The position numbers and the translations under genes are program-made. Shown here one piece after another: positions 28,264-54,962 of a stretch of 64,000 nucleotides of DNA. The notes beneath the pieces are model-generated. The model was not told where the DNA came from. It searched no databases and saw only the letters and a list, made by a program, of their open reading frames with translations. The DNA is taken from assembly GCA_900473175.1 (NCBI GenBank), contig UCKM01000015.1, forward strand, positions 62,001 to 126,000, given 5' to 3'. Source of the DNA: Hyphomicrobiales bacterium. Lineage in GTDB: Bacteria > Pseudomonadota > Alphaproteobacteria > Rhizobiales > Rhizobiaceae. Position 1 is the stretch's first letter; each line of letters opens with the position of its first letter.

Positions 28264-28292
28264 CCTCATCCGCCCGTTTCTGCATGGCTGGA

Positions 28293-28461
28293 GTGCGTGG
28301 TTCGACAAGCTCACCATGAGGAAATTTTGTGGGCTGCAACGACATTCATCGACGCATGAGTTTTTTGATCCCTGCTAAGCAAAGATCTCCTCATGGTGAG
28401 CAGTTCTTGGCTCCCTGCAAAGCACAAATCTCCCTCATGGTGAGCTTGTCGAACCACGCAC
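28293..28461. repeat. 28-bp perfect inverted repeat with internal direct repeat
   Basis: The arms 28293-28320 and 28434-28461 are exact reverse complements (core GGTTCGACAAGCTCACC). Between them the sequences ending near 28400 and 28446 form an imperfect direct repeat of about 32 bp (TCATGGTGAGC shared). It lies between the converging mnmA and DegT genes. It looks like a dispersed intergenic palindrome and may fold as a long transcript end. Confidence 0.8.
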
Positions 28462-30776: not shown

Positions 30777-31008
30777 GTCGGCATCCAATATCTGGAGCAT
30801 GAAACGATGACAAGTCCCGGAACCCGGCAATTCAATGTCAGCCTGGGAAAAACCCGGCGCCCGGTTCAAGCATATTCAGATACGAATGCTCGCAAGATTG
30901 CTTGACAGGCAGTTTCTGCCCACATATACCCCGCCCGTCCCTGTCGCATGACAGCGCGCTCCCCGGTATAGCTTGATAGGCAGACCATCGACGGATCGCA
31001 TGACATGG

Positions 31009-31085
31009 GGCGAAGTAGCTCAGTAGGTTAGAGCAGAGGAATCATAATCCTTGTGTCGGGGGTTCGAATCCCTCCTTCGCTACCA
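31009..31085 (+). tRNA. tRNA-Met (CAT), site of island integration
   Basis: It folds as a standard cloverleaf: acceptor GGCGAAG with CTTCGCT, D-arm GCTC/GAGC, anticodon arm GAGGA-ATCATAA-TCCTT with anticodon CAT, and T-arm GGGGG-TTCGAAT-CCCTC. The discriminator A and an encoded CCA follow. It resembles the elongator tRNA-Met of alphaproteobacteria rather than initiator tRNA; a tRNA-Ile2 identity (lysidine-modified CAT) is less likely. Its 3' half overlaps the recombinase gene on the other strand. Confidence 0.93.
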
Positions 31086-32679
31086 TCGCTCCCCCCCACA
31101 CGTTCGGGATGTGTTCCCCGGTGAGGGAGGCGATGTAGGTCCAAACCTCGGCTTGATACCCGCCGTTAGCGGTATCGCTCACTTCTATATGTGAAATCAT
31201 CGACCTGATTGCCTCGACAACTTCGGGATCGGTGATTTGCTCGCCCTCTTCCAGCTGCTCCGATATGCGCGTGATCGTGCGCTGCAAGCGCCGGATCGAA
31301 GTGGGGTGGATGTCGACAACCGGCACCGCTTCTTTCGCGGCCTCAAGCTCTTTCAACAGCTTTTGCCGCTCGACATCCAATTCCTTCGTGCGAACCTCGA
31401 TGCGCTCTGCCGGGAGGCCCTTTGCAAGCGCATCAATCAGCCGATCGAGTTCCCGCGTGACATCCATCAGGCGCTTTTCGACCTTAGATCGATTTCGGGT
31501 CGCGCTGTTGATGGCCTCGCGGCGGTTTTCGTAATAGGCCCGGATATGCTCGGCAGTGGCTTCTGGATTATCCACCATTTCGAACAGGCCGTTTACGACG
31601 GCCTTCTCGATCCGATCGAGCCGATAGCCTCGGCTGTTGTCACAAGTCCCACTCTCTATATATCGGGAGCATTTGATCCGAATGCCACCACCATGGTTTC
31701 CCTGCGACGACATTCCGCCGCCGCAATAGACGCAGCGAAGGAGGCCGGAAAGCAAACGCTTCGGCTTCCGCGTCATATGCCCCTGTTTGCTCCCATGCGA
31801 TCGATGCTCTTTGCGCTCCTGCGCGGCCTGGAAGATCTCCCGGCTGACGATCGCAAGATGCGGAGCCTCTGCCGTCTTCCACTCGCTTTCATGATTAAAG
31901 CGGCTTATCCGCCGCCCCGTATCGGGGTCTCGGATCATTCGAACTCGGTTCCATACGATCGTCCCGCCATAGATGGCATTGACGAGAATTCCATAGGATC
32001 GATTTTTGCTGCCGTTGATTGTGCTTGCATTCCATCTGACACCACGCGGGGGCGGCACGCCCTCGTCGTTCAATTGCCGCGCGATATCGCGGGGCGTATA
32101 GCCTTTCAGGTAGCGATCGAAGATCGTCCGGATGACTGCCGCTTGCTCGTCGTTAATGGTCCGCTCGCCGGGCTTGCCCGGAACCATGTCGTAGCCGTAG
32201 GCATTCCCCCCGGCCACCCGGCCATCATTGACGACGCCTGCAAGGCCCCGGCGAACCTTGTGCTTAAGGTCGGCCATGAACAGCGAACCCACCAAACCCC
32301 GAATGCCAATTTGAACCGCATCGGCAACGCCGTCGTGGACCGCCATGATATCGACGTTGACGAAGGTGAGCCGCTTATAAATGCCTGCCAAGTCTTCCTG
32401 ATCGCGGGAAACGCGATCGAGGGCTTCGACAATCACCATGTCGAAAAGCCCGGCCTTGGCATCATCCATCAGCTGCATAAGGCCATCGCGGCCAATGATC
32501 GAGGCGCTGGTTTGCGCCCGATCGGAATAGACGCGGGTGACTTCTATTCCCTCTTTCCGGGCATGGGTCCGGCATAGCGCCACTTGATCGTCAATGGAGC
32601 GATCTTTTTGGAGGTCCGTCGAATAGCGGGCGTAGATTGCCGCTCTTCGTGATGGGTTGCTTCTTGGTCTTGGCTGCAT
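31042..32679 (-). CDS. large serine recombinase (island integrase)
   Basis: 545 residues. The resolvase domain starts AAIYARYSTDLQ with catalytic Ser20 and contains VIVEALDRVSRD. A Recombinase domain follows (about 170-280), then a zinc ribbon (CVYCGGGMS and CSRYIESGTC) and a coiled coil (about 375-450). The last 14 codons, MVAKEGFEPPTQGL, are the reverse complement of the tRNA 3' half, so integration supplies the natural end of the gene. It catalyses insertion and excision of the island. Confidence 0.95.
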   Translation of the reverse strand: MQPRPRSNPSRRAAIYARYSTDLQKDRSIDDQVALCRTHARKEGIEVTRVYSDRAQTSASIIGRDGLMQLMDDAKAGLFDMVIVEALDRVSRDQEDLAGIYKRLTFVNVDIMAVHDGVADAVQIGIRGLVGSLFMADLKHKVRRGLAGVVNDGRVAGGNAYGYDMVPGKPGERTINDEQAAVIRTIFDRYLKGYTPRDIARQLNDEGVPPPRGVRWNASTINGSKNRSYGILVNAIYGGTIVWNRVRMIRDPDTGRRISRFNHESEWKTAEAPHLAIVSREIFQAAQERKEHRSHGSKQGHMTRKPKRLLSGLLRCVYCGGGMSSQGNHGGGIRIKCSRYIESGTCDNSRGYRLDRIEKAVVNGLFEMVDNPEATAEHIRAYYENRREAINSATRNRSKVEKRLMDVTRELDRLIDALAKGLPAERIEVRTKELDVERQKLLKELEAAKEAVPVVDIHPTSIRRLQRTITRISEQLEEGEQITDPEVVEAIRSMISHIEVSDTANGGYQAEVWTYIASLTGEHIPNVWGGAMVAKEGFEPPTQGL

Positions 32680-32798
32680 TTTTTGCTTTCTGCATTGCTT
32701 TCAGTAGTTAGACCGTCGCTAAGATTATCGGCGCGGGCATCAGCCCGCCCCAATGCGCGTGCGAGGTTTAGCAGCAACGGATCGAGTGTCGGAACCAT
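32544..32798 (-). CDS. small hypothetical protein overlapping the recombinase start
   Basis: 84 residues from an ATG at 32798 (AGGGGAAG just upstream), beginning MVPTLDPLLLNLARALGRAD. The first half looks like a helix-forming real protein, but the last 45 codons overlap the recombinase gene in another frame by 136 bp. Such an overlap is unusual, so the gene may be shorter in life, or frameshifted. Confidence 0.4.
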   Translation of the reverse strand: MVPTLDPLLLNLARALGRADARADNLSDGLTTESNAESKKCSQDQEATHHEERQSTPAIRRTSKKIAPLTIKWRYAGPMPGKRE

Positions 32799-32808
32799 TG
32801 ACTTCCCC

Positions 32809-33003
32809 TTATCCAAACAAGTCCGCCTGGGCGGGGCTGATATCGATCGAAGCTGCGGTCCGGCGGGCATTTGCTGCCCGCTCCATCAGCCAAAACCACA
32901 TGTTGCCGAAATGTCTCCGGCGGCTCGCTTCGCGCAGGAGAACCCGCGCATAGTGGATTTGAAATGCCCGTTCCTCAGGCGGGGAGCGATCCGCCGTTTT
33001 CAT
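32809..33003 (-). CDS. small island protein of unknown function (64 aa)
   Basis: 64 residues from the ATG at 33003 (GGAGA upstream). The sequence is basic and helical with an aromatic patch (HFGNMWFWLMERAAN). It starts 4 bp after the ssb stop, in one operon with ssb. No family recognised. Confidence 0.6.
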   Translation of the reverse strand: MKTADRSPPEERAFQIHYARVLLREASRRRHFGNMWFWLMERAANARRTAASIDISPAQADLFG

Positions 33004-33007
33004 CCCA

Positions 33008-33511
33008 TTATCTCCATTCCGGAGCGAACGGGATTTCATCGTCAAGATCGCGGCTGAAATTGCGCCCGCTGCTTGTGCCGCCGCCCGAATTGCTGCGGCT
33101 GCTTTCGCGATCATCGTCTCGATCCCGCGAGCGCCCACGGCTCGAACCCCGATCCTGATCGCCGTCGCCATTGCCGCCAAGCATCTTCAATTCGCCCTTG
33201 AAATTCTGAAGAACGACCTCCGTCGAATATCGGTCGTTGCCGTCGCTGTCCTGCCACTTGCGAGTTTGCATCGCCCCTTCGATGAAGATCAGCGCGCCTT
33301 TCCGAAGATACTGCTCGGCCACCTTGGCGATGTTTTCATTAAAGATGACGATGTTGTGCCATTCAGTCTTTTCCTTCCGCTCGCCACTGTTCTTGTCGCG
33401 CCATGTCTCGGTTGTCGCGAGACTGAAATTCACCACCGGGCTACCGCTATTCAGGCGGCGGACTTCTGGGTCTTTGCCCAGACGACCGATCAATTGAACC
33501 TTATTCAGCAT
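33008..33511 (-). CDS. ssb: single-stranded DNA-binding protein (island copy)
   Basis: 167 residues. The OB fold (1-110) starts [19 protein letters not shown] and includes TEWHNIVIF and [12 protein letters not shown]. An Arg/Asp/Ser/Gly-rich linker leads to DLDDEIPF, the acidic tip that docks repair and replication proteins. Here five more residues (APEWR) follow the tip, which is unusual because SSB normally ends there. It is probably an accessory SSB for element transfer or replication. Confidence 0.93.
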
Positions 33512-33518
33512 TATTCAC

Positions 33519-33761
33519 CTATTTCGTTAAGGGCGTCGCGGGAATTTCACCGATCAAAACGCTGACATGAACGCCGAGGGTCCGGGAAAGCGTGACAAGC
33601 TCCGAAGCTGAAAGGTCTCGCACACCGTTCTCGATACGCGTGATGGTGTGCTGCTTCTTCCCGATCGCTTCCGCGAGTGCCTTTGTGGACAGTCCCCGAA
33701 GCAGTCGGAGTGCACGAAGGCGCTCGGCAAGCATCGCGTCGATTTGCTGTTTTGTATCCAT
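33519..33761 (-). CDS. XRE-family helix-turn-helix regulator
   Basis: 80 residues; HTH_3 domain about 12-68: RLRALRLLRGLSTKALAEAIGKKQHTITRIENG. It is typical of phage and island repressors. It lies 7 bp upstream of ssb in the same direction and only 36 bp from the diverging gene, so it may control both directions. Confidence 0.88.
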   Translation of the reverse strand: MDTKQQIDAMLAERLRALRLLRGLSTKALAEAIGKKQHTITRIENGVRDLSASELVTLSRTLGVHVSVLIGEIPATPLTK

Positions 33762-33797
33762 GATCAGACCCCCCGCAGCTTCAAATGATGGCGAACG

Positions 33798-34184
33798 GTG
33801 TGCCTCAAATCTTTTTCAAGATCGGTCGCCCAGGCGGGCGCGGCGGAACTATCGCCGCAGGACGCCAAGGCGGGAAAAGATGCGATCGAGCTCCACTACA
33901 TCAATCAGAAAATCTATTCGCCGGTCGTTTGCGATGAGCGCGAGGTCGGCGGGACAGTCTTCGTCAGCTGCGGCCCATCGCGAGGTAGCGTTGATGGCGG
34001 TTTGTGGGCTATCGGAGCCGGGCCGACTGTCCTCGCCGTCAATGGCAAGGCCTTGCAGCATGCGGACGGCATTGGAACGACAATCTTCGATGCTGATGGG
34101 AAACAGGTAAGGTTCGCCGAGTGGCGAAAGGTGCATCGAGACAAGCCAATCGATGTTCCTGCTGTGTTGAAAGCCTTCCAATGA
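33798..34184 (+). CDS. hypothetical island protein, possibly 5'-truncated
   Basis: 128 residues from a GTG at 33798, without a good ribosome site and with only 36 bp to the divergent regulator. The conserved-looking part starts around LSPQDAKAGKDAIELHYINQ and contains two Cys (VVCDE and VSCGP). The family is unknown to me. Its TGA overlaps the ATG of the membrane protein gene that follows, so the two are coupled. The true N terminus may have been lost. Confidence 0.5.
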   Translation: MCLKSFSRSVAQAGAAELSPQDAKAGKDAIELHYINQKIYSPVVCDEREVGGTVFVSCGPSRGSVDGGLWAIGAGPTVLAVNGKALQHADGIGTTIFDADGKQVRFAEWRKVHRDKPIDVPAVLKAFQ

Positions 34185-34807
34185 TCGGTGGCGAAAGGTC
34201 GGGGGCTATCCTGTTCCTCGCCGTGGCGCTGGCAAGCGCGATATTCGGCGCGGCATTCTCGATGACAGTTGCCCGCCACTCGGCAGACGCGTCGTTTCTT
34301 TGGTCGGCAGAGGAAGTCCTTTACAGATATCAAACCCTAATTGCAGGCTTTGCTGCAGCAGCGTTTGCTTGGATGAGCGTCCGAAAAGTGACCGATCAAA
34401 TGGCACTTCAACGGGAGCAGCATGTTTCGGATAAGCGGTTCGCCTTAAGGAAGGAAATCGCTGCCCTGGGGGAGCTTGGGAACTTCTTTGACAATATTGC
34501 GAACGAATTAAAGGGCAACGAGACGCTGGCAGATTATCATCTGTCGAAGCTCGGCCATTTTCTCGAAGAAGACGCCAACAACATTTTGGAACACCACAGT
34601 GCCGGATTGCCAAGCCTCGTCAAACAGGACTTGTCAAAGGCAGTCGCACTCTTATCCCGCTACAATAAATACGAAGTGATGGACGCTTTTGAGCAGGAAG
34701 TAAGAGGACCGCGTTCAAACCTCGTTTCTCCCATAGACGAACAACTGACCAAACTTCGTGCATCGGTGTTCGATTGGCGGGGCGAGATCAATGGTTTTCT
34801 GCGATAG
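34181..34807 (+). CDS. two-helix membrane protein of unknown function
   Basis: 208 residues from the ATG at 34181 (overlaps the previous stop). Helix 1 spans about 8-30 and helix 2 about 48-66 (YQTLIAGFAAAAFAWMSV). The remaining 140 residues are a charged helical cytoplasmic part (MALQREQHVSDKRFALRKEI and so on). This layout, a membrane anchor with a soluble helical domain, is common in island cargo, including some phage-defence effectors, but nothing identifies its activity. Confidence 0.7.
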   Translation: MIGGERSGAILFLAVALASAIFGAAFSMTVARHSADASFLWSAEEVLYRYQTLIAGFAAAAFAWMSVRKVTDQMALQREQHVSDKRFALRKEIAALGELGNFFDNIANELKGNETLADYHLSKLGHFLEEDANNILEHHSAGLPSLVKQDLSKAVALLSRYNKYEVMDAFEQEVRGPRSNLVSPIDEQLTKLRASVFDWRGEINGFLR

Positions 34808-34929
34808 GCCAACTATTCATTGAGCTTATATGCAGTAAACGTGCCGATATATGCTTTTGATAACTAGCACTTGCCCAACGCGGGGTTAGCAGATTAGGCT
34901 TGATCGGGGTGACGGGGACCAAAAGCCAT

Positions 34930-36033
34930 ATGACAGAAGTTGCGCCGTGGGAAGATGAAGGGCGTTCAGATCGCTTGTTCATCCATTTTGACGTTGAAGG
35001 TCATTTTCTCAAGCTCGATACTTTTATTCAAACTGCGGAAAGTGCCCGCGAGATCATCGCGGCGATAGACCAGACGTTCTTCAAAGGTGAATTGAAGTAT
35101 GAACTGATCGTGTTGCCGCCGGACGATGGCAGCTTCCTAACAAAATTTGGGGTCTTGGTTGCCGCTGGAACGGCAGCTTTTGGAATTTTGAATACTGACA
35201 TCGGCGCCGCTTATGTCGAGGGGTTGACAGGAAAAGCGCCAGTCGAATGGGCGAAAGAGCTTGGCCAGGATCATCGCGTGCGCGTCCAAGATGCCTATGA
35301 GATGATCGAGCCCAGGGAAGAGCCCTCACAAGAAACTACTCAGCCAACGCCTCCATCCCCAACCTCTACCAAATCAGAGAGCGATCAAGCGGCTTGCCGA
35401 ACTAGCGCGAAGATAATTGTCGCTATGGCGCGAGGTGTTCTTGAAAAGGAAACTGATGAATTAAACAGGATCGGCATGAACGTCGGCAATTTGTTCGACG
35501 CACTGGACGCGCGCGCAAAGTTCTATAGCGCCTGCATCAAAGATAGCGACGTTAGCCGGATCGGGTTCACGCCTGATGATGAGTTCCCGATCCCCCGCAA
35601 GTCATTCCCCGAGCGCGCCCAGAAGCCTACACCGCCAGACATTGAGGAAGATCCATCCGAGTGGGCGGTTGCCATCGAAAGCATTTATGTCACTTCCCCC
35701 AATTGGGATGAGGAAGATCAGAAAACCCGCCAATGGAAGGGCAAAGATCAAATTCGCCGTGACTGCTACTTCGTGATCGAAGACGCCGAGTTTTGGGGGC
35801 TGGTCAAGGTGAAAAGCTTGCACGTGGAGGTATTGGACAACCTTAAAGTCCAATGGGCTTATCAGATCAAGGAAGGCAGACCGAAAAACCGCAGGGTCCT
35901 ACGTGTCCTTGAGTTCAATGGGGATAAGCTGGCCGATCCCCTTATGCCCGATGCAATACGGGCAGTCCTGGGGAGCTTTTCGGCGATGAGTGCCCCGCGC
36001 GGTGAGCCTACACTGTTCGATGATCGGGACTAA
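34930..36033 (+). CDS. unrecognised island cargo protein (367 aa)
   Basis: The start is taken at the ATG at 34930; a TTG at 34900 would add ten residues. N-terminal part 1-70 is alpha/beta (LFIHFDVEGHFLKLDTFIQTA). A hydrophobic stretch follows at about 70-87 (FGVLVAAGTAAFGIL), then a Pro/Glu/Ser/Thr-rich linker (120-150). The C-terminal part (about 235-340) has strand-rich sequence with EDAEFWGLVKVKSLHVEVLDN. I do not recognise the family. It is the last gene before the first degenerate att copy, as cargo often is. Confidence 0.65.
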   Translation: MTEVAPWEDEGRSDRLFIHFDVEGHFLKLDTFIQTAESAREIIAAIDQTFFKGELKYELIVLPPDDGSFLTKFGVLVAAGTAAFGILNTDIGAAYVEGLTGKAPVEWAKELGQDHRVRVQDAYEMIEPREEPSQETTQPTPPSPTSTKSESDQAACRTSAKIIVAMARGVLEKETDELNRIGMNVGNLFDALDARAKFYSACIKDSDVSRIGFTPDDEFPIPRKSFPERAQKPTPPDIEEDPSEWAVAIESIYVTSPNWDEEDQKTRQWKGKDQIRRDCYFVIEDAEFWGLVKVKSLHVEVLDNLKVQWAYQIKEGRPKNRRVLRVLEFNGDKLADPLMPDAIRAVLGSFSAMSAPRGEPTLFDDRD

Positions 36034-36089
36034 CGTTCGAAAGAGCCTTCGCTACCGATCAAGCGCACAAGCCCGTATTGGGCTTGTGC
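36032..36089. repeat. att-like copy B plus hairpin
   Basis: AACGTTCGAAAGAGCCTTCGCTACC (split: 36032-36051 and 36052-36056) resembles the T-arm and acceptor end of the tRNA-Met at 31009. It continues into a hairpin GCACAAGCCC-GTATT-GGGCTTGTGC at 36065-36089. Bases 36043-36089 are identical to 37045-37091. It is a likely attR of the first island segment. Confidence 0.7.
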
Positions 36090-36114
36090 TCTCATTTCGT
36101 CACGGCGACACTCG

Positions 36115-36759
36115 CTATTTCACCGAGTTGCATATGCTGGCATCAAGCTCGCAAGGCACGTTTAAACGTGTCTCGTTGTTTGTCGATGCCCATGGATGCT
36201 CGAACGTCTTGCGGCACTGCGGGTACTTTGTTTGCCAGCCAGCGTCTGCCTTCACCCAATAAACGTCAAAGACGGCATTTACCCGCGTATCTGTTCCGAC
36301 TTTGAATGGGACCGACATGTACCAGCCAAGACCATCATCGTTGCTCGCCCCTGGGACCACCCGATAGATCGTCGTATTGAAGGTCGAACCGCCGTGGGTC
36401 TCAACGTCCTTGTCCCCTGCTCCCCGGGGACCAATGAGTTTTGCCTCACATATCGTATAGCCCACGTCCGTCCGGATGATGCCCCGCATATCCTGCTTAT
36501 CATTGGGTACAATCAGCTTAGCGGCTTCAGCAATGCTGGCGTTTACTTTATCCGGGTCACAACCGAAGAAGGCGCACGCGGCTGCAACCACTGCCTGGCC
36601 CTCCTTGGTGGTGAGTTCTTTCGTAGTCTTTTGAACGATATCCACCTTATCGTGTTGGACTAGAACGTCGTATCGATTGACGAGAATTTCCTGAGCGTCG
36701 GCGGTGGATGCCAGTGCCGCCCCCACACAAGCACAGCCAAATGCAAAGATGTTTCGCAT
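36115..36759 (-). CDS. secreted protein of unknown function
   Basis: 214 residues with a signal peptide ending STADA|QEILV. The mature part has four to six Cys (for example FFGCDPD, YTICEA, PQCRKT and NVPCEL) that could form disulphides in the periplasm. It lies alone between att copies B and C, as the sole cargo of a 1-kb segment. No family recognised. Confidence 0.65.
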   Translation of the reverse strand: MRNIFAFGCACVGAALASTADAQEILVNRYDVLVQHDKVDIVQKTTKELTTKEGQAVVAAACAFFGCDPDKVNASIAEAAKLIVPNDKQDMRGIIRTDVGYTICEAKLIGPRGAGDKDVETHGGSTFNTTIYRVVPGASNDDGLGWYMSVPFKVGTDTRVNAVFDVYWVKADAGWQTKYPQCRKTFEHPWASTNNETRLNVPCELDASICNSVK

Positions 36760-36973
36760 GTTGTCCTCCCAAACTTACGAGATCATTTGCGGTGCTAGAT
36801 TGTTCCTCGGCCCACAAGCATACAAAGTACCCCCATGCGCTCATGTCCTAATGGTGAACATTCTAGAGGAAATACCGAGGTTTATCGATTAGCCCAATAG
36901 GGGATACCCGTTGCACATTGGTAGTGCCCCCGGTCGATCAGCCGAGATGCATTACGAGGCCAATAAGCTGCGG

Positions 36974-37091
36974 CTATGCGATGAATTTTCCGATGCTTAT
37001 GATTTCCTGCCGATCGCGGTTTGTTGGGGGGGAACGTTCGAAACGAGCCTTCGCTACCGATCAAGCGCACAAGCCCGTATTGGGCTTGTGC
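36974..37091. repeat. att-like copy C with flanking homology and hairpin
   Basis: The 33 bp at 37026-37058 (seven G, then AACGTTCGAAACGAG and CCTTCGCTACC) are identical to 39329-39361. The preceding 50 bp are also similar to those before copy D. It is followed by the same hairpin as copy B (37067-37091). This is a probable junction between two inserted segments. Confidence 0.7.
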
Positions 37092-37102
37092 GCTAGTATC
37101 AG

Positions 37103-37258
37103 TCATCAAGCTTTATGATTTGGCCTTCACGAATTTCAAACACGCCATTTTCACCACCTTCTGCGATGAATTCGGCTTCGAGTTCAGCCCAAGTGCCGAG
37201 AGGCGTACCGCATGTGCTGCAATTGATCAGCGCGCCCGGCGTCACGTTTTGCGTGACC
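37103..37258 (-). pseudogene. 3' fragment of an unrecognised gene
   Basis: A 51-codon open frame without a start (an upstream TAG closes it) reads VTPGALINCSTCGTPLG and ends GVFEIREGQIIKLDD. The CSTC pair resembles half a zinc ribbon. It is probably the tail of a gene cut by a recombination event. The rest of 37092-37484 holds nothing that I can identify apart from the sulfatase ribosome site. Confidence 0.4.
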
Positions 37259-37484
37259 TAAGAAATCGTCGCTGTATATTTTCTTGTAACCGTTACGTAC
37301 TTGCGATGTTGGCTAATTCTGAAAAGAGTGGTCTTGAAGGGCCGTTCTTATTCCATGGCATCACGGCGCGGACCTTTCGCACGGCTACATCCACTGAGTA
37401 CACAGATGCTACGGGCGTAACGGCGCCGCATTACCCGCAGGAACGTGTCTCTCTGCCTTGGCCCAATCCACGGGAGGTACTGCA

Positions 37485-39140
37485 ATGGCAGACAATTCAA
37501 ACCCAAGCAGGCGTGATCTTTTGCTGACTGGCGGGTCGTTGCTCGCCATGTCGGCGATCGGCGCGGCTGCCACGAGTGTAACCGGCAAGAGCGCGAACGC
37601 CCAAGCATCTGGCAAAAAACCGAACATCGTCGTCATCATGGGTGACGACATCGGCATCTGGAATATCGGTGCCTATCATCGCGGTATGATGGCAGGGCGT
37701 ACTCCAAATCTCGACAAGCTCGCCGCAGAGGGCATGCTGTTTACCGATTACTACGCCGAGGCAAGCTGCACCGCGGGTAGAGCAAATTTCATCACCGGCG
37801 AGCTTCCGGTTCGTACCGGCATGACCACAGTCGGCCAAGCTGGCTCGCCAATCGGTATACCAGCGGCTGCACCCACCCTTGCTACCGTCCTGAAGTCCAT
37901 GGGCTACGCCACGGGGCAGTTCGGCAAGAACCACCTTGGCGACCTCAATGAGTTCCTCCCAACCGTCCACGGCTTCGACGAGTTCTTCGGCTATCTCTAT
38001 CACCTCGACGCGATGGAAGATCCGGCGCACCCCGGCTATCCGCAGGACCTGCTGAATGTCGTCGGTCCCCGCAACATGGTCCACTCGTGGGCCACCGATG
38101 TGGATGACCCGACGGAAATGCCGCGCTGGGGAAAGATCGGCAAGCAAAAGATCGAGGACGCCGGCACGCTGTTTCCGAAGCGGATGGAAACCGTTGACGA
38201 CGAAATTCAGGACCTTTCCTTCAAGTTCATCGACAAGGCCAAGGCCGACGGCAAACCGTTCTTCCTCTGGCTTAACCCGACGCGAATGCACATCGTCACC
38301 CACCTCTCGGAGAAGTACGAGAAGATGCGCAACTCTGAGAATGGCTGGACCATCCACGAGGCGGGAATGGCCCAACTCGACGATATCGTCGGTGCCACAA
38401 TGCAGAAGCTTAAGGACCTTGGGGTGGACGACAACACCATCATCATATTCACCACCGACAATGGCACCGAGAACTTTACCTGGCCGGATGGTGGCCAGAC
38501 CCCATTTTACGGCGGCAAAGGCACGACCTATGAAGGCGGTTTCCGCGCACCAGCCATGATCCGCTGGCCCGGGCATGTTCCTGCGGGCTCGATCGGAAAC
38601 GGTCTGTTCTCCGGGCTCGATTGGTTCCCTACCCTCGTAGCCGCTGCGGGCGATCCCAATATCATCGTCGAGCTGAAGGCCGGGAAGGACCTCAATGGCC
38701 AGAACTACAAGGTTCACCTCGACGGCTATGACCAGACCAGCATGATCACCGGAACGGGTAAATCGAACCGCCACGAGATTTGGTATTTCGCCGAAAGCAC
38801 ACTCGGTGCTGCCCGCATTGACGACTACAAATACACCTTCAAAGAACAGCCGGGCGGTTGGCTCGGTGACACGGTGACATTGGGTGCTCCGACCGTTGTC
38901 AACCTGCGTCTGGATCCGTTCGAGCGCACGGCTTTCTTCAAGGGGGGAAACAACGGCTCGCTCGAATATATGGAATGGTACAAATTCGAATTCTGGCGTT
39001 TCGTTCTCGTTCAGCAGAAGGTGGAGGAGTTGGCCAAGTCCGCCATCGACTTCCCGCCTATGCAGGCAGGCGCAAGCTTCGGGCTTAGTGCCGTCAAGGC
39101 TCAGATCGCAGAGGCCATGAGGAAACAACACGGGCAGTGA
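37485..39140 (+). CDS. Tat-exported sulfatase (CTAGR type)
   Basis: 551 residues from the ATG at 37485 (GGGAGG upstream). A twin-arginine signal is visible (SRRDLLLTGG). The sulfatase fold begins KPNIVVIMGDD, with Asp54-Asp55 as metal ligands. The formylglycine site is C95-T-A-G-R99, the C-x-A-x-R variant. HIVTHL and TTDNGTENF supply later active-site residues. It hydrolyses a sulfate ester, unknown, in the periplasm. A formylglycine-generating enzyme is needed and is not in the window. It resembles the sulfatase at 53295. Confidence 0.9.
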   Translation: MADNSNPSRRDLLLTGGSLLAMSAIGAAATSVTGKSANAQASGKKPNIVVIMGDDIGIWNIGAYHRGMMAGRTPNLDKLAAEGMLFTDYYAEASCTAGRANFITGELPVRTGMTTVGQAGSPIGIPAAAPTLATVLKSMGYATGQFGKNHLGDLNEFLPTVHGFDEFFGYLYHLDAMEDPAHPGYPQDLLNVVGPRNMVHSWATDVDDPTEMPRWGKIGKQKIEDAGTLFPKRMETVDDEIQDLSFKFIDKAKADGKPFFLWLNPTRMHIVTHLSEKYEKMRNSENGWTIHEAGMAQLDDIVGATMQKLKDLGVDDNTIIIFTTDNGTENFTWPDGGQTPFYGGKGTTYEGGFRAPAMIRWPGHVPAGSIGNGLFSGLDWFPTLVAAAGDPNIIVELKAGKDLNGQNYKVHLDGYDQTSMITGTGKSNRHEIWYFAESTLGAARIDDYKYTFKEQPGGWLGDTVTLGAPTVVNLRLDPFERTAFFKGGNNGSLEYMEWYKFEFWRFVLVQQKVEELAKSAIDFPPMQAGASFGLSAVKAQIAEAMRKQHGQ

Positions 39141-39161
39141 AATGAAGGCATTGATGCTGCG

Positions 39162-39188
39162 AACGGCTCTTGAGGAGCCGTTCCTTCC
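39162..39188 (+). terminator. hairpin downstream of the sulfatase
   Basis: Stem GAACGGCTC / GAGCCGTTC (39162-39170, 39176-39184) with loop TTGAG, followed by CTTCC. It has the position of a terminator but a poor U tract. Confidence 0.6.
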
Positions 39189-39263
39189 ATCCGTGCAATC
39201 GGCAACGGCGACGACGTAGCCAACGACGGACGGGCAGGCACAGGTCATAAACAGCTTGTTACT

Positions 39264-39361
39264 GTTATGCGGTAAATTTCCCGATGCTCATGATTTCATG
39301 CTGGTCGCGGTTTCGAACATGCGCCCTTGGGGGGGAACGTTCGAAACGAGCCTTCGCTACC
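39264..39361. repeat. att-like copy D
   Basis: 39329-39361 is identical to 37026-37058 (33 bp), and the 50-60 bp before it are similar to those before copy C. After CCTTCGCTACC it continues CATC, as the tRNA does, and not with the GATC-hairpin of copies B and C. It probably marks the right end of the composite island. The 155 bp from here to the IS element hold no gene. Confidence 0.65.
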
Positions 39362-39516
39362 ATCACTTTCCACAATGATTTCAGACAGTTATGGCGTTCC
39401 AGCGCGGCAGAAATTCCGATTTCATGTTGCGTTCATGTTGCACTCATTATCATTGATTTTTATAGGCTTTCACTAAGTAGCGGCTAGTCGACGCGACATG
39501 GACGCAACATGAAGCG

Positions 39517-40400
39517 GGTCTTGTCACATAAACTGAGGTGAAGTGGAGTTTGCCTCTCTGCTGCCTGTTTCAGGCAATCGCGATCGTCGCGATGTTCCAC
39601 TGGGCCATCGCATTGAGACGATGGTGGCGTATGGCATTTGCTGAGCGGTTGGAGCGAGGTGGGACGAAGAGATTTCTTAGGGCTGAGAAGATCGCGACGA
39701 AGCGTTGCAGGCCTCCTTGAGATCGGAAGCCCTGCATGATCCGCTCACGTTTCGTAGCGGCAGATGTGAATTCTCCGCCCGATTATTCAGCCCCTTGTGG
39801 CTCCGATGTTCAACGGAAGGCATGATTTGACGCCGAGCTGCTCGATAGGGGCGGAGCTTATCGGTGATCATACGCCTCGGCACCATGCCCTGCTTCTTTA
39901 GCAGACGCACCAGCAATCGCCTGGCAGCCTTGGCATTACGACGGTTTTGGACAATCGCGTCGAGCACATAGCCTTCCTGATCAACAGCCCGCCACAACCA
40001 GCACTTCTTGCCTGCGATGGTGATGACCATCTCGTCAAGGTGCCAGATATCATTTCCGCTTGGCTGCTTGCGGCGAAGGCGCCGGGCATAGCTCGGGCCG
40101 AACTTGATCCCCCAGGGCCGGACCGTTTCATAAGAGACGGTGATCCCGCGTTCCAGCAGCATTTCCTCAACGAGCCGCAAGCTCAATGGAAATCTGTAGT
40201 AGAGCCATACGGCACGGGCGATGATCTGAGCTGGGAAACGGTGACGTTTGTAGCTGACGGCAGGCTGGGTCATGCCGTGTCTTCTAGCTCAGAAATGCTG
40301 ACGCCACGTTTATGTGACAATACTTCGCGACGATCGCGATTGCCTGAAACAGGCAGCAGAGAGGCAAACTCCACTTCACCTCAGTTTATGTGACAAGACC
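39517..40400. mobile_element. IS6-family-like insertion sequence with 76-bp inverted repeats
   Basis: 884 bp. The ends 39517-39592 and 40325-40400 are perfect 76-bp inverted repeats starting GGTCTTGTCACATAAACTGA; IS6-family repeats are normally far shorter. A second copy of TTTATGTGACAA lies internally at about 40309. No 8-bp target duplication flanks it (ATGAAGCG left, TTCCTCAG right), so a deletion or rearrangement has probably followed insertion. The transposase gene is frameshifted. Confidence 0.85.
39677..40273 (-). pseudogene. IS6-family transposase, frameshifted near the C-terminus
   Basis: 198 codons remain in frame. The DDE triad is visible as Asp80 (WHLDEMV), Asp138 (ITDKLRPY) and Glu167 (NNRAENSH). 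After LPLR at about 39752 the frame goes wrong; a single extra base there would restore a segment reading RERIMQGFRSQGGLQRFVAI, which is the usual IS6 ending. One base seems to have been lost, so the copy is probably inactive unless a programmed shift occurs. Confidence 0.85.
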
Positions 40401-52699: not shown

Positions 52700-53294
52700 G
52701 ATGTCACCGAAGCCCCATCCCCTTGGTGTTCGAGTGCGCTTCTTTTGCAAACACTAGGCGCGGATTAACCTCGTGACAAGTTCGATCCACACAAGCCGGC
52801 TCTGTTCAAAGGCGATGAGAACAGACCCATCCGAATTGATATACGGTTTCATGTAGCTGGCAACGGAAGGAGTTGGTTGCGTGGTTCAAACTTGAGGTTG
52901 AATGTCCGCTTTGCGCCAATAGCTGACGTTCCGATGTGAGTGCCCTCGGCGAGATTAACTGAATCCCGGCTTCCAATCATCCAGTGCCTAAGGTGTCGGC
53001 CACCCATGGTGTCCGATGTTACAGTTACGTACTTCACCGATGGCCGATAACTGGAAATACTTTTGGGGATCGCAGGCACCAGTTTGGTGACGCGATATTT
53101 AAGTTGGCATACTGATTGATACTTTGCCCCGCTGGGAGGGAGGCCCAAGCGCGGCATCGTTGTCCCTAAGAAACAGTTCAGCCACGTTTTGTATCACTTC
53201 CCGATCTGTCCAATACCACATCAGGATCGCAATCATTCTTGTGCCGTGCCTGTTCACGGCGGGCGCACAAGCCAGCCAAAGGAGGATAGCAGTC
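52700..53294. other. intergenic region between the Pao operon and the second sulfatase
   Basis: 595 bp holding the divergent promoters. I see no gene. The stretch at 52900-52940 (GTCCGCTTTGCGCCAATAGC) looks like a dispersed intergenic repeat, also hinted at by ATGTCCGCTTTTTGCAG at 63482, but copies are too diverged to define. Confidence 0.4.
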
Positions 53295-54962
53295 ATGACC
53301 ATGAGAAGCGTGAAACGCTTCGCGCTAGCCGTTGCATTGGCATCCAGCGTATTCGCTGTTCCGGCGCAAGCTCAAGACAAGAAACCGAACATTGTTATGC
53401 TCATGACCGACGACACCGGATGGAATGATCTCGGTGCCTACTCGGGAGGCGGTGCGGCCCTCGGCCATCCTACGCCGAACCTCGATCGCCTCGCCAGCGA
53501 GGGTGCCATGTTTACATCCTGGTACGGCCAAGCAAGTTGCACTGCGGGCCGTGCCTCGTTCATAACGGGACGCATTCCGATCCGCTCCGCGCTGTCGATC
53601 GTGGTTGCCCCCGGTGACCAAAACGCCCTTCGCAAGGAAACACCGACAATCGCCGAGTTTTTCAGGGACAACGGCTACACGACCTACTTCTCCGGCAAGT
53701 GGCATCTGGGCGACAAGCCCGAAGCATATCCGATCGAGCACGGCTTCGACGAGATGAAGGCGTTCGGCGCGTACTATCCGGGGGTCTATACCTACAGCGA
53801 TACGTCCCCCTGGTTCCATCCGTGGTTTCCCTCGTTCAATAAGGAATACTCCGAAGAATACTTCAAGATCGTCAACATGTTCGAGTGGGAAGGCGTCGCT
53901 GGCCAGCCCGCCAAAAAAGTGAGCGAGATCTCCTGGGACTACCTGTCTACCTTCGACGTCAGGCAGGCAGATTACGCCATCGACTACATCAAAAAGCACG
54001 CAAAAGAAGACAAGCCCTTCTTCATGGACGTAAACTTCATGAAGATGCACAACCCGAACAATCCCGCGCCCAAGTTCGCGGGCCGAACGCATCTCGGCCG
54101 CTACTCGGATTCCGTCATGGAGCTCGACGACAATATTGGCCGAATCGTGGATACCATCCGGGCGGAGGCGCCCAACACGATTGTCATCGTGACTGCCGAC
54201 AACGGCGCCTGGCAAGATGCCTATCCCGATGCTGGAACCCATCCGTTTCGCGGCGAGAAAGGCAGCTCGTTTGAAGCCGGTTGGCGGGTACCGGGCTTGA
54301 TGTGGTGGCCAGATCACATCCCCGCCGGCGCGAAGTACGGTGAAATGATGACGCATATCGACTGTTGGGCGACGCTGGCCACAATGGTCGGCCTCACTCC
54401 GCCGCCTCATGGCGAGTGGAAGGACAACAACGGCAAGCCCATTTATTTCGACAGCATTGACAACAGCGCCTACATCCTGGGTAAGGCTGACCATTCGGCG
54501 CGGCGATCCTGGGTTTATGTCGATGGCGAGAACTTCAACGCGATCCGCGTGGACATCGCCGGGGACCCGAAGGAGCCCTGGGTCAATATCGCCTGGAAAT
54601 ACACCTGGACCGCGAAGGACTCGTGGCTCGGCCCGCAACAGAACCTGGGGTCGATTGGCTCTCTCTACAACCTGACCATGGACCCATTCGAGAAATACGA
54701 CATGGTCTTCAATGGCGCGATGTCATCGCGCCTGCCGAAGAGCTCGCCGGGTCAGTATGCGGGAGAGGACAACGGCTGGGTCCTGTCGCTGGTCTATCCC
54801 GCACTCATCGAGTTCGACCAGTCGGTCATCAAGTATCCAAGCATCAAGCGGTTCCCGGGTGGTGCTTCGGACGACCTGATGCCGAACCTGCAGAACCCGG
54901 AAAACCCCGTGCCTGCGCTGGATCCGAACAACCCACCGCAAACAAAGGCCGGCGGCGGCTGA
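53295..54962 (+). CDS. Sec-exported sulfatase (CTAGR type)
   Basis: 555 residues from the ATG at 53295 (GGAGG 9 bp upstream). The signal peptide ends AVPAQA|QDKK. KPNIVMLMTDD gives Asp39-Asp40. The formylglycine site is C82-T-A-G-R86. Later motifs are GKWHLGD, MKMHNP and TADNGAW. The C-terminal third (YTWTAKDSWLGPQ to the Pro-rich end) resembles that of large arylsulfatases. Same subgroup as the sulfatase at 37485, but exported by Sec, not Tat. Substrate unknown. Confidence 0.92.
   Translation: MTMRSVKRFALAVALASSVFAVPAQAQDKKPNIVMLMTDDTGWNDLGAYSGGGAALGHPTPNLDRLASEGAMFTSWYGQASCTAGRASFITGRIPIRSALSIVVAPGDQNALRKETPTIAEFFRDNGYTTYFSGKWHLGDKPEAYPIEHGFDEMKAFGAYYPGVYTYSDTSPWFHPWFPSFNKEYSEEYFKIVNMFEWEGVAGQPAKKVSEISWDYLSTFDVRQADYAIDYIKKHAKEDKPFFMDVNFMKMHNPNNPAPKFAGRTHLGRYSDSVMELDDNIGRIVDTIRAEAPNTIVIVTADNGAWQDAYPDAGTHPFRGEKGSSFEAGWRVPGLMWWPDHIPAGAKYGEMMTHIDCWATLATMVGLTPPPHGEWKDNNGKPIYFDSIDNSAYILGKADHSARRSWVYVDGENFNAIRVDIAGDPKEPWVNIAWKYTWTAKDSWLGPQQNLGSIGSLYNLTMDPFEKYDMVFNGAMSSRLPKSSPGQYAGEDNGWVLSLVYPALIEFDQSVIKYPSIKRFPGGASDDLMPNLQNPENPVPALDPNNPPQTKAGGG

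Follow-up and report, generated by a model that had tools for sequence, protein, structure and literature searches.

The stretch analysed here (the window, 64,000 nucleotides, C39:62001-126000; contig coordinate = window coordinate + 62000) belongs to contig C39 of a genome (G000) that measures 4.88 Mb and is divided into 45 contigs, and carries a tRNA-Met gene followed by an array of small gene cassettes that are separated by copies of the tRNA 3′ end. The array spans the interval from tRNA-Met to a LysE gene, which follows the last copy at a distance of 72.6 kb from the tRNA. The source organism probably belongs to Phyllobacterium, a genus of plant-associated bacteria, judging from its kinship with relatives of the same genus, and our comparison set comprised 20 Phyllobacterium genomes, i.e. 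this one and 19 relatives, among which G214 is P. zundukense Tri-48 and G215 is P. zundukense A18/3m. The features of the locus are collected in Table 1.

Table 1. Features of the tRNA-Met locus (window coordinates unless stated otherwise)
Feature	Position	Strand	Basis or remark
tRNA-Met (CAT), landing site	31009-31085	+	ARAGORN; Rfam RF00005, 67.5 bits
tRNA-proximal recombinase unit, ~5 kb	31085-36056 (contig 93085-98056)		bounded by tRNA and site B
Large serine recombinase, 545 aa	31042-32679	-	Pfam Resolvase, Recombinase, Zn_ribbon_recom
Single-strand binding protein	33008-33511	-	Pfam SSB
Helix-turn-helix regulator	33519-33761	-	Pfam HTH_3
377-aa open reading frame (ORF)	34900-36033	+	ORF list; no Pfam match; stop codon overlaps site B
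Site B, core without long arm (GGGACTAACGTTCGAAAGAGCCTTCGCTACC)	36026-36056	+	nearer to C and D than to tRNA
Cassette 1, 1002 bp	36057-37058		segment between sites B and C
5′ hairpin, cassette 1	36063-36089	+	11-bp helix
Cassette 1 ORF, 214 aa	36115-36759	-	no family found
Site C, arm and core	36946-37058	+	arm profile R1, 80.4 bits
Cassette 2, 2303 bp, with sulfatase	37059-39361		direct reading
5′ hairpin, cassette 2	37065-37093	+	start alignment, folding
Sulfatase-family protein, 560 aa	37458-39140	+	Pfam Sulfatase, 3.8e-52
Site D, arm and core	39245-39361	+	arm profile R1, 88.8 bits
Insertion sequence (IS) element	39517-40400		inverted ends of 79 bp (39517-39595, 40322-40400), 98.7% identical
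IS transposase ORF	39677-40273	-	DDE_Tnp_IS240
Ten core copies	contig 98046 (B), 99048 (C), 101351 (D), 157814, 158707, 159318, 161136, 162425, 163732, 165531	+	

Copies of the tRNA-Met end and a conserved arm

The 3′ end of the tRNA-Met gene (TTCGAATCCCTCCTTCGCTACC) is intact, and its 11-bp tail CCTTCGCTACC (contig position 93074) recurs ten times further on, always on the plus strand and with at most one mismatch, across 72.5 kb. A preliminary description of the window had noticed three of these copies, B (36032-36056), C (37026-37058) and D (39329-39361), and had likened them to the tRNA-Met end; direct reading agrees with it, since all three carry TTCGAA...CCTTCGCTACC, and equally bears out the 33 bp common to C and D (GGGGGGGAACGTTCGAAACGAGCCTTCGCTACC) and the 47 bp common to B and C, which run from GAGCC through a hairpin. 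Its count of three fell short, seven further copies lying past the window (contig 157814-165541). A 26-base pattern with up to three mismatches finds C and D in the window, where 100 shuffles yield 0.00 matches on average, and B escapes this pattern by a one-base deletion. In the whole genome, CGAAN{3,8}CCTTCGCTACC matches ten times in forward orientation, at the tRNA and at nine of its copies, always on C39, and never on the reverse strand, while the reversed control gives 0 matches genome-wide; the copy at 163732 is absent from this count because of its single mismatch. Four further matches to CCTTCGCTACC in a 141-kb stretch of the contig are isolated and lie outside the tRNA-LysE interval. 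At 162425 the core has its tRNA form (TTCGAATCCCT), as expected of a recombinant with the tRNA.

Nine of the ten cores lie at the end of a conserved arm that measures about 110-130 bp (...GGGGGGaACGTTCGAAACGnnCCTTCGCTACC). The preliminary description spoke of "degenerate" attachment (att) copies; these nine, C and D included, form a specialised conserved site, and site B has the core and no arm. When 17 sites from five genomes are aligned, the arm reads AAATTTTCCGATGCTnATGATTTCC...ATCGCGA..., followed by a run of G and then by aACGTTCGAAACGnnCCTTCGCTACC. The arm profile detects nine sites in the genome under study, five in G214 (one of them partial), two in G215 and one each in G213 and G210, i.e. 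in 5 of the 20 Phyllobacterium genomes or 4 of the 19 relatives; a 22-bp match in G204 and two cores without arm (G213 C9:83159 and G063 C37:200851) are not counted here. A second profile adds five sites on a plasmid of Phyllobacterium sp. A18/5-2, the last of which is damaged in its core. In wider samples, searched with stricter filters under which weak matches are lost, the arm profile matches 2 of 394 genomes of the family, both Phyllobacterium (1 of 109 genera), and 1 of 397 genomes of the order, the present one (1 of 142 genera); an exact-core search of 199 family genomes, which had retrieved the present genome only, was too strict and is superseded by the profile. Among the genomes sampled, the arm-site cassette system is seen only in Phyllobacterium.

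Single-strand folding of the arm sites alone left all eight tested sites unfolded (z from -0.85 to 0.98), whereas two folds that include the hairpin gave z of -2.07 and -2.49. Rfam recognises only the tRNA in window 30800-39600, and nothing at the single plasmid tail tried (Tri-48, L091; see below). A phage or viral origin of the site was rejected, since one site had no match in 50,697 phage records and the core pattern had no exact match in IMG/VR.

Cassettes, hairpins and the recombinase unit

The unit that abuts the tRNA encodes a protein with the resolvase N-terminal domain, the recombinase domain and the zinc ribbon of large serine recombinases, which also matches the integrases of PHROG 95 (4e-97) and whose final codons are the antisense of the tRNA (MVAKEGFEPPTQGL). 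The segments past this unit measure, in order, 1.0, 2.3, 56.5, 0.9, 0.6, 1.8, 1.3, 1.3 and 1.8 kb. The eight small ones (0.6-2.3 kb) each hold one or two genes, in both orientations, and no recombinase; their G+C content is 0.51-0.57, against 0.54-0.61 per kb across the 31 kb that precede the tRNA. Their cargo consists of the 214-aa protein without family match, the sulfatase, an unknown 207-aa protein, a SnoaL-like protein, an effector-associated-domain protein, an EamA transporter, a DUF1232 protein together with a PEMT-type methyltransferase, and a DUF1254/DUF1214 protein. The sulfatase cassette matches in part 227 plasmid records, none of which reaches 80% coverage; among the matches listed, the likeness concerns the gene only, at 60-80% identity in most, and as this gene is common in rhizobia these matches are uninformative on the cassette.

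The 56.5-kb segment (contig 101361-157824; window 39361-64000 and on) contains 54 non-overlapping ORFs of at least 120 aa, mostly metabolic or transport genes by eye; Pfam was applied to three of them, namely the transposase, one for a DUF992 protein and one for a second sulfatase (window 53124-54962). It opens, shortly past site D, with an IS element that is outside the cassette system. An IS-mediated origin of the segment was considered and rejected, as contig positions 42001-183000 contain a single copy of this IS and no composite transposon was seen.

Five of the eight small units begin with a hairpin. We aligned 16 starts, namely 5 from this genome, 6 from G214, G213 and G210, and 5 from the A18/5-2 plasmid; these were picked for a visible hairpin, a choice that favours structure. 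The alignment omits the local starts without one, which are those after the tRNA, after D, and at 158717, 159328 and 163742; the start at 163742 has half a hairpin. In this alignment, 94.9% of the cells of an 11-bp helix located 6-8 bases past the core are paired, against 17.6-46.8% for slid versions. Helix cells changed on both sides number 11, against 5.5 in shuffles, and the covariation score is 0.186 against 0.106 (0 of 500 shuffles). The covariation is nevertheless modest, because the double changes are limited to two pairs and the pair-count measure does not rise above the shuffles (437/500).

Relatives and plasmids

The sequence to the left of the tRNA is matched in each of the ten 3-kb loci compared, as well as in G214, G211 and G063. 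The LysE gene lies downstream of the tRNA in 7 of the 19 relatives, at 1.2 (G210), 2.7 (G209), 2.8 (G200), 6.0 (G205), 8.7 (G214), 12.6 (G204) and 27.1 kb (G063); it was not found in the other 12 within the 6-20 kb fetched behind the tRNA (6 kb only in G203, where the contig ends), a weak LysE paralogue in G201 (35%) being uncounted. The last core is followed by ATT, the bases that follow the tRNA in 18 of the 19 relatives, which is weak evidence because the inner site at 159318 also has ATT next to it. The comparison of this locus between strains, proposed in the preliminary description, thus revealed a nearer LysE in seven relatives but no arm site behind the chromosomal tRNA-Met in any of the 19.

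Two further observations concern this locus. G211 carries two complete tandem tRNA-Met genes 1.57 kb apart with like downstream sequence (C1:3701837-3703427), i.e. a duplication of the full tRNA. Moreover, short intergenic repeats that look like the repetitive extragenic palindromic (REP) type occur in both orientations at window 28281-28461 and contig 176662-176817 and 178615-178950, and are found again close to tRNA-Met in several Phyllobacterium genomes.

Site-bearing plasmid records all come from Phyllobacterium: Tri-48 (NZ_CP017941.1), A18/3m (NZ_CP104972.1) and sp. A18/5-2 (NZ_CP104967.1). Plasmids of Tri-48 (NZ_CP017941.1) and A18/3m (NZ_CP104971.1) reproduce the tRNA-Met tail exactly over 36 bp, and A18/5-2 has an imperfect copy; the three tails align over about 104 bp, tail included, with 83-90% identity, and ARAGORN predicts no tRNA gene in the plasmid-tail stretches fetched. 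Cassettes come after the tail in Tri-48 and A18/5-2, forming two plasmid arrays. In A18/3m (G215 C3, tail at 106766), the tail is followed by the gene of an approximately 391-aa tyrosine integrase that has an arm-binding domain (L088:18481-19656, minus strand). No tRNA-tail anchor was seen for the arm sites of G213 and G210 or for either of the two in G215. Just before the A18/5-2 tail we noted an IS110-family transposase (Transposase_20, DEDD_Tnp_IS110; L090:17035-18153), and on the Tri-48 plasmid a 236-bp cassette (125728-125963; L057:728-963) composed of hairpin, arm and core, with scant room for a gene and perhaps empty.

Several cassettes recur between replicons. The EamA cassettes of G210 and of the A18/5-2 plasmid are 95.3% identical over 1171 bp, and their identity begins exactly at CCTTCGCTACC, the preceding sequences being different; the other edge falls within the arm, which is mostly lost there in A18/5-2. 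On this plasmid the EamA cassette is adjacent to one encoding a 201-aa protein, whereas their relatives in our genome (72% and 68% identical, respectively) have two other cassettes between them. Over 1.69 kb, the DUF1254 cassette shares 89% identity with part of contig C1 of G214 (Tri-48). This part opens with the first half of the hairpin and ends near the expected start of the arm; the sequence before this half hairpin may be a worn core.

Probable accretion at tRNA-Met, its alternatives and known systems

The array very probably arose by site-specific accretion of recombinase-less cassettes at tRNA-Met, whichever enzyme is responsible. This extends the successive insertion proposed in the preliminary description, which is supported by the position of the array between tRNA-Met and LysE and by cassettes that are shared and reordered across genomes; the uniform orientation of the sites, their anatomy and one precise left boundary, that of the EamA pair, complete the evidence. 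A typical cassette begins right past the core, often with a hairpin, and ends with the arm of about 110-130 bp and the core GGGGGGaACGTTCGAAACGnnCCTTCGCTACC. A circular form of it would recombine with the tRNA-Met 3′ end within the common CCTTCGCTACC, which would keep the tRNA whole, set the new cassette beside it and displace the older ones outward, so that each older junction would consist of arm plus core. The serine-recombinase unit would then be the latest arrival, and the hairpin would supply the tRNA with a new 3′ end or terminator, its own having been pushed away.

Several observations weigh against this explanation. The 56.5-kb segment is far above cassette size, the recombinase unit closes with an arm-less core, and the left junction in G210 shows CCTTCGCTACC without tRNA-like sequence before it. 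The absence of arm sites behind the tRNA-Met of all 19 relatives means that a chromosomal tRNA-Met array is known so far from this genome alone. Besides the EamA and DUF1254 pairs, identity between shared cassettes is about 68-72%, which makes the shuffling mostly old.

The preliminary description had named copies dispersed at sites unrelated to tRNA-Met as the finding that would speak for another repeat family. Such sites exist in relatives, where G213 and G210 have one apiece and G215 has two, and they are what an ordinary dispersed intergenic repeat, similar to REP sequences or to miniature inverted-repeat transposable elements, with a tRNA-like end by chance and immobile segments between its copies, would predict. 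However, the copies in our genome form a single strand-uniform array behind tRNA-Met, cassette identity begins exactly at the core, and two plasmid arrays begin at a tRNA-Met tail, which makes this explanation quite improbable. Small cassettes, uniform site orientation and a repeated long site also recall a chromosomal integron, in which the sites would be attC moved by an IntI-type tyrosine recombinase. Integron attC sites carry the motif GTTRRRY, whereas the cassette edge lies here within the tRNA tail; the arm does not fold, the genes occur in both orientations, and C39 has no Phage_integrase match, compared with 13 elsewhere in the genome. An integron is accordingly highly improbable, and we rejected the identification of the sites as attC on account of the missing fold and the missing Phage_integrase match on the contig. 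One may also imagine several integrase-bearing islands inserted in turn at tRNA-Met, each decayed to a remnant: the 56.5-kb segment suits a large element, and different recombinases use such sites, serine recombinases in G000 and G063 and a tyrosine integrase at the G215 plasmid tail. Independent decay would not result in a common arm at nine junctions, in a hairpin in five of the eight small units or in two units that recur elsewhere, so that we regard this scenario as unlikely.

The enzyme that moves the cassettes is a separate question from their accretion. The best, if tentative, candidate is the large serine recombinase encoded next to the tRNA, because it is the sole match to PF07508 or PF00589 on C39, abuts the tRNA, and its unit ends in site B, which resembles C and D beyond the identity with the tRNA (score 11, 0 of 2000 shuffles for each; score 0 for B against the tRNA). 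Site B compares less clearly with the other seven local arm sites (p from 0.008 to 0.5, three below 0.05). In G063, a serine recombinase about 45% identical also abuts tRNA-Met, with a copy of CCTTCGCTACCA 17 kb further on, but the core at the end of that element is unlike the cassette sites. A single scan of GTDB genomes retrieved one remote match (26% identity) and no close relative of the enzyme; none was found in the arm-site genomes G210, G213, G214 and G215, one G215 arm site being followed by a fragment weakly similar to the serine-recombinase C terminus (15 residues, E 0.17). The source genome encodes two more PF07508 recombinases, which like its 13 Phage_integrase matches reside on other contigs, and these enzymes could act on the cassettes in trans. 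Finally, the dyad symmetry of attP sites modelled from joined element ends was not significant in 11 of 11 cases (lowest p 0.06), so that it does not locate the crossover.

Some of the evidence speaks for a tRNA-targeting tyrosine integrase. The attP sites of tyrosine integrases consist of a long arm and a core, to which the cassette site bears a likeness; an enzyme of this type with an arm-binding domain stands directly behind the plasmid tail of G215, and the serine recombinase is missing from the other arm-site genomes. Site B ties the serine-recombinase unit to the cassette core, and we hold a tyrosine integrase to be a doubtful alternative, as is, with still less probability, some other enzyme.

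A broader reading, which we consider rather unlikely, is that of a distinct Phyllobacterium gene-capture platform, a serine-recombinase counterpart of the integron. Its recombinase-less cassettes, each holding one or two genes, a long site that mimics the tRNA and often a hairpin of its own, would enter tRNA-Met or the megaplasmid tails and shuffle between replicons. Little is understood of how bacteria gather single genes in the absence of integrons, and site family, landing sites, cargo and a candidate recombinase are now available together. As Tri-48, A18/3m and A18/5-2 have been sequenced and carry the same sites on closed plasmids, direct testing is feasible. Repeated tRNA tails within islands may mark a cassette system and not decay.

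The array shares features with several known systems. The SCC (staphylococcal cassette chromosome) islands of staphylococci use a large serine recombinase to enter the 3′ end of the conserved gene rlmH, and form tandem units, some of them without recombinase. The present enzyme is likewise a large serine recombinase with CcrB as its best NCBIfam match (6.2e-30), but its scores are far under the Ccr cut-offs (104.3 bits against 900 for CcrB, 60.8 against 900 for CcrC and 49.1 against 700 for CcrA), the target is tRNA-Met and the units are smaller. Cis-mobilizable elements (CIMEs) are att-flanked units without recombination genes, formed by accretion; the anatomy of our recombinase-less, att-flanked units would fit this description, except that they are small, have a conserved arm and in many cases a hairpin, and are not remnants of integrative and conjugative elements. 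Like an integron, the array gathers cassettes of 0.6-2.3 kb, each with one or two genes, at a fixed landing site, and it differs from integrons in its tRNA landing site and in the absence of a folded attC and of a tyrosine recombinase on the contig.

Among tRNA-associated elements, the integration hot spots of Sinorhizobium meliloti are reported to involve tyrosine integrases in nearly all cases (PMC11476347). Tycheposons are described as cargo elements of 4-200 kb that are associated with the tyrosine recombinase xerD and occupy tRNA genes, tRNA-Met among them (PMC10872708); on that description they differ from our array, since C39 has no match to Phage_integrase. The top matches in the open literature concern tRNA-repeat islands in other phyla; none of them deals with a Phyllobacterium cassette array, with a cassette defined by a long arm and a hairpin, or with cassettes at both a chromosomal tRNA and plasmid tails. 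The closest counterparts are additive flexible islands, in which cassettes or islands are reported to be added at a tRNA and marked by direct repeats of its end, e.g. the islands of Ca. Methylopumilus with tRNA-Lys end repeats (PMC10872708) and the gene cassettes of Ca. Actinomarinales at tRNAs with direct repeats (PMC7771536). Our locus likewise has tRNA-end repeats beside the tRNA and flanking genes that lie much closer together in relatives. Compared with these islands, as they are described there, it is distinguished by its arm of 110-130 bp, by the hairpin in many units, by cassettes that can be traced between genomes and by a serine recombinase at the tRNA. The array is a variant of the tRNA-anchored additive island with a conserved arm and hairpin.

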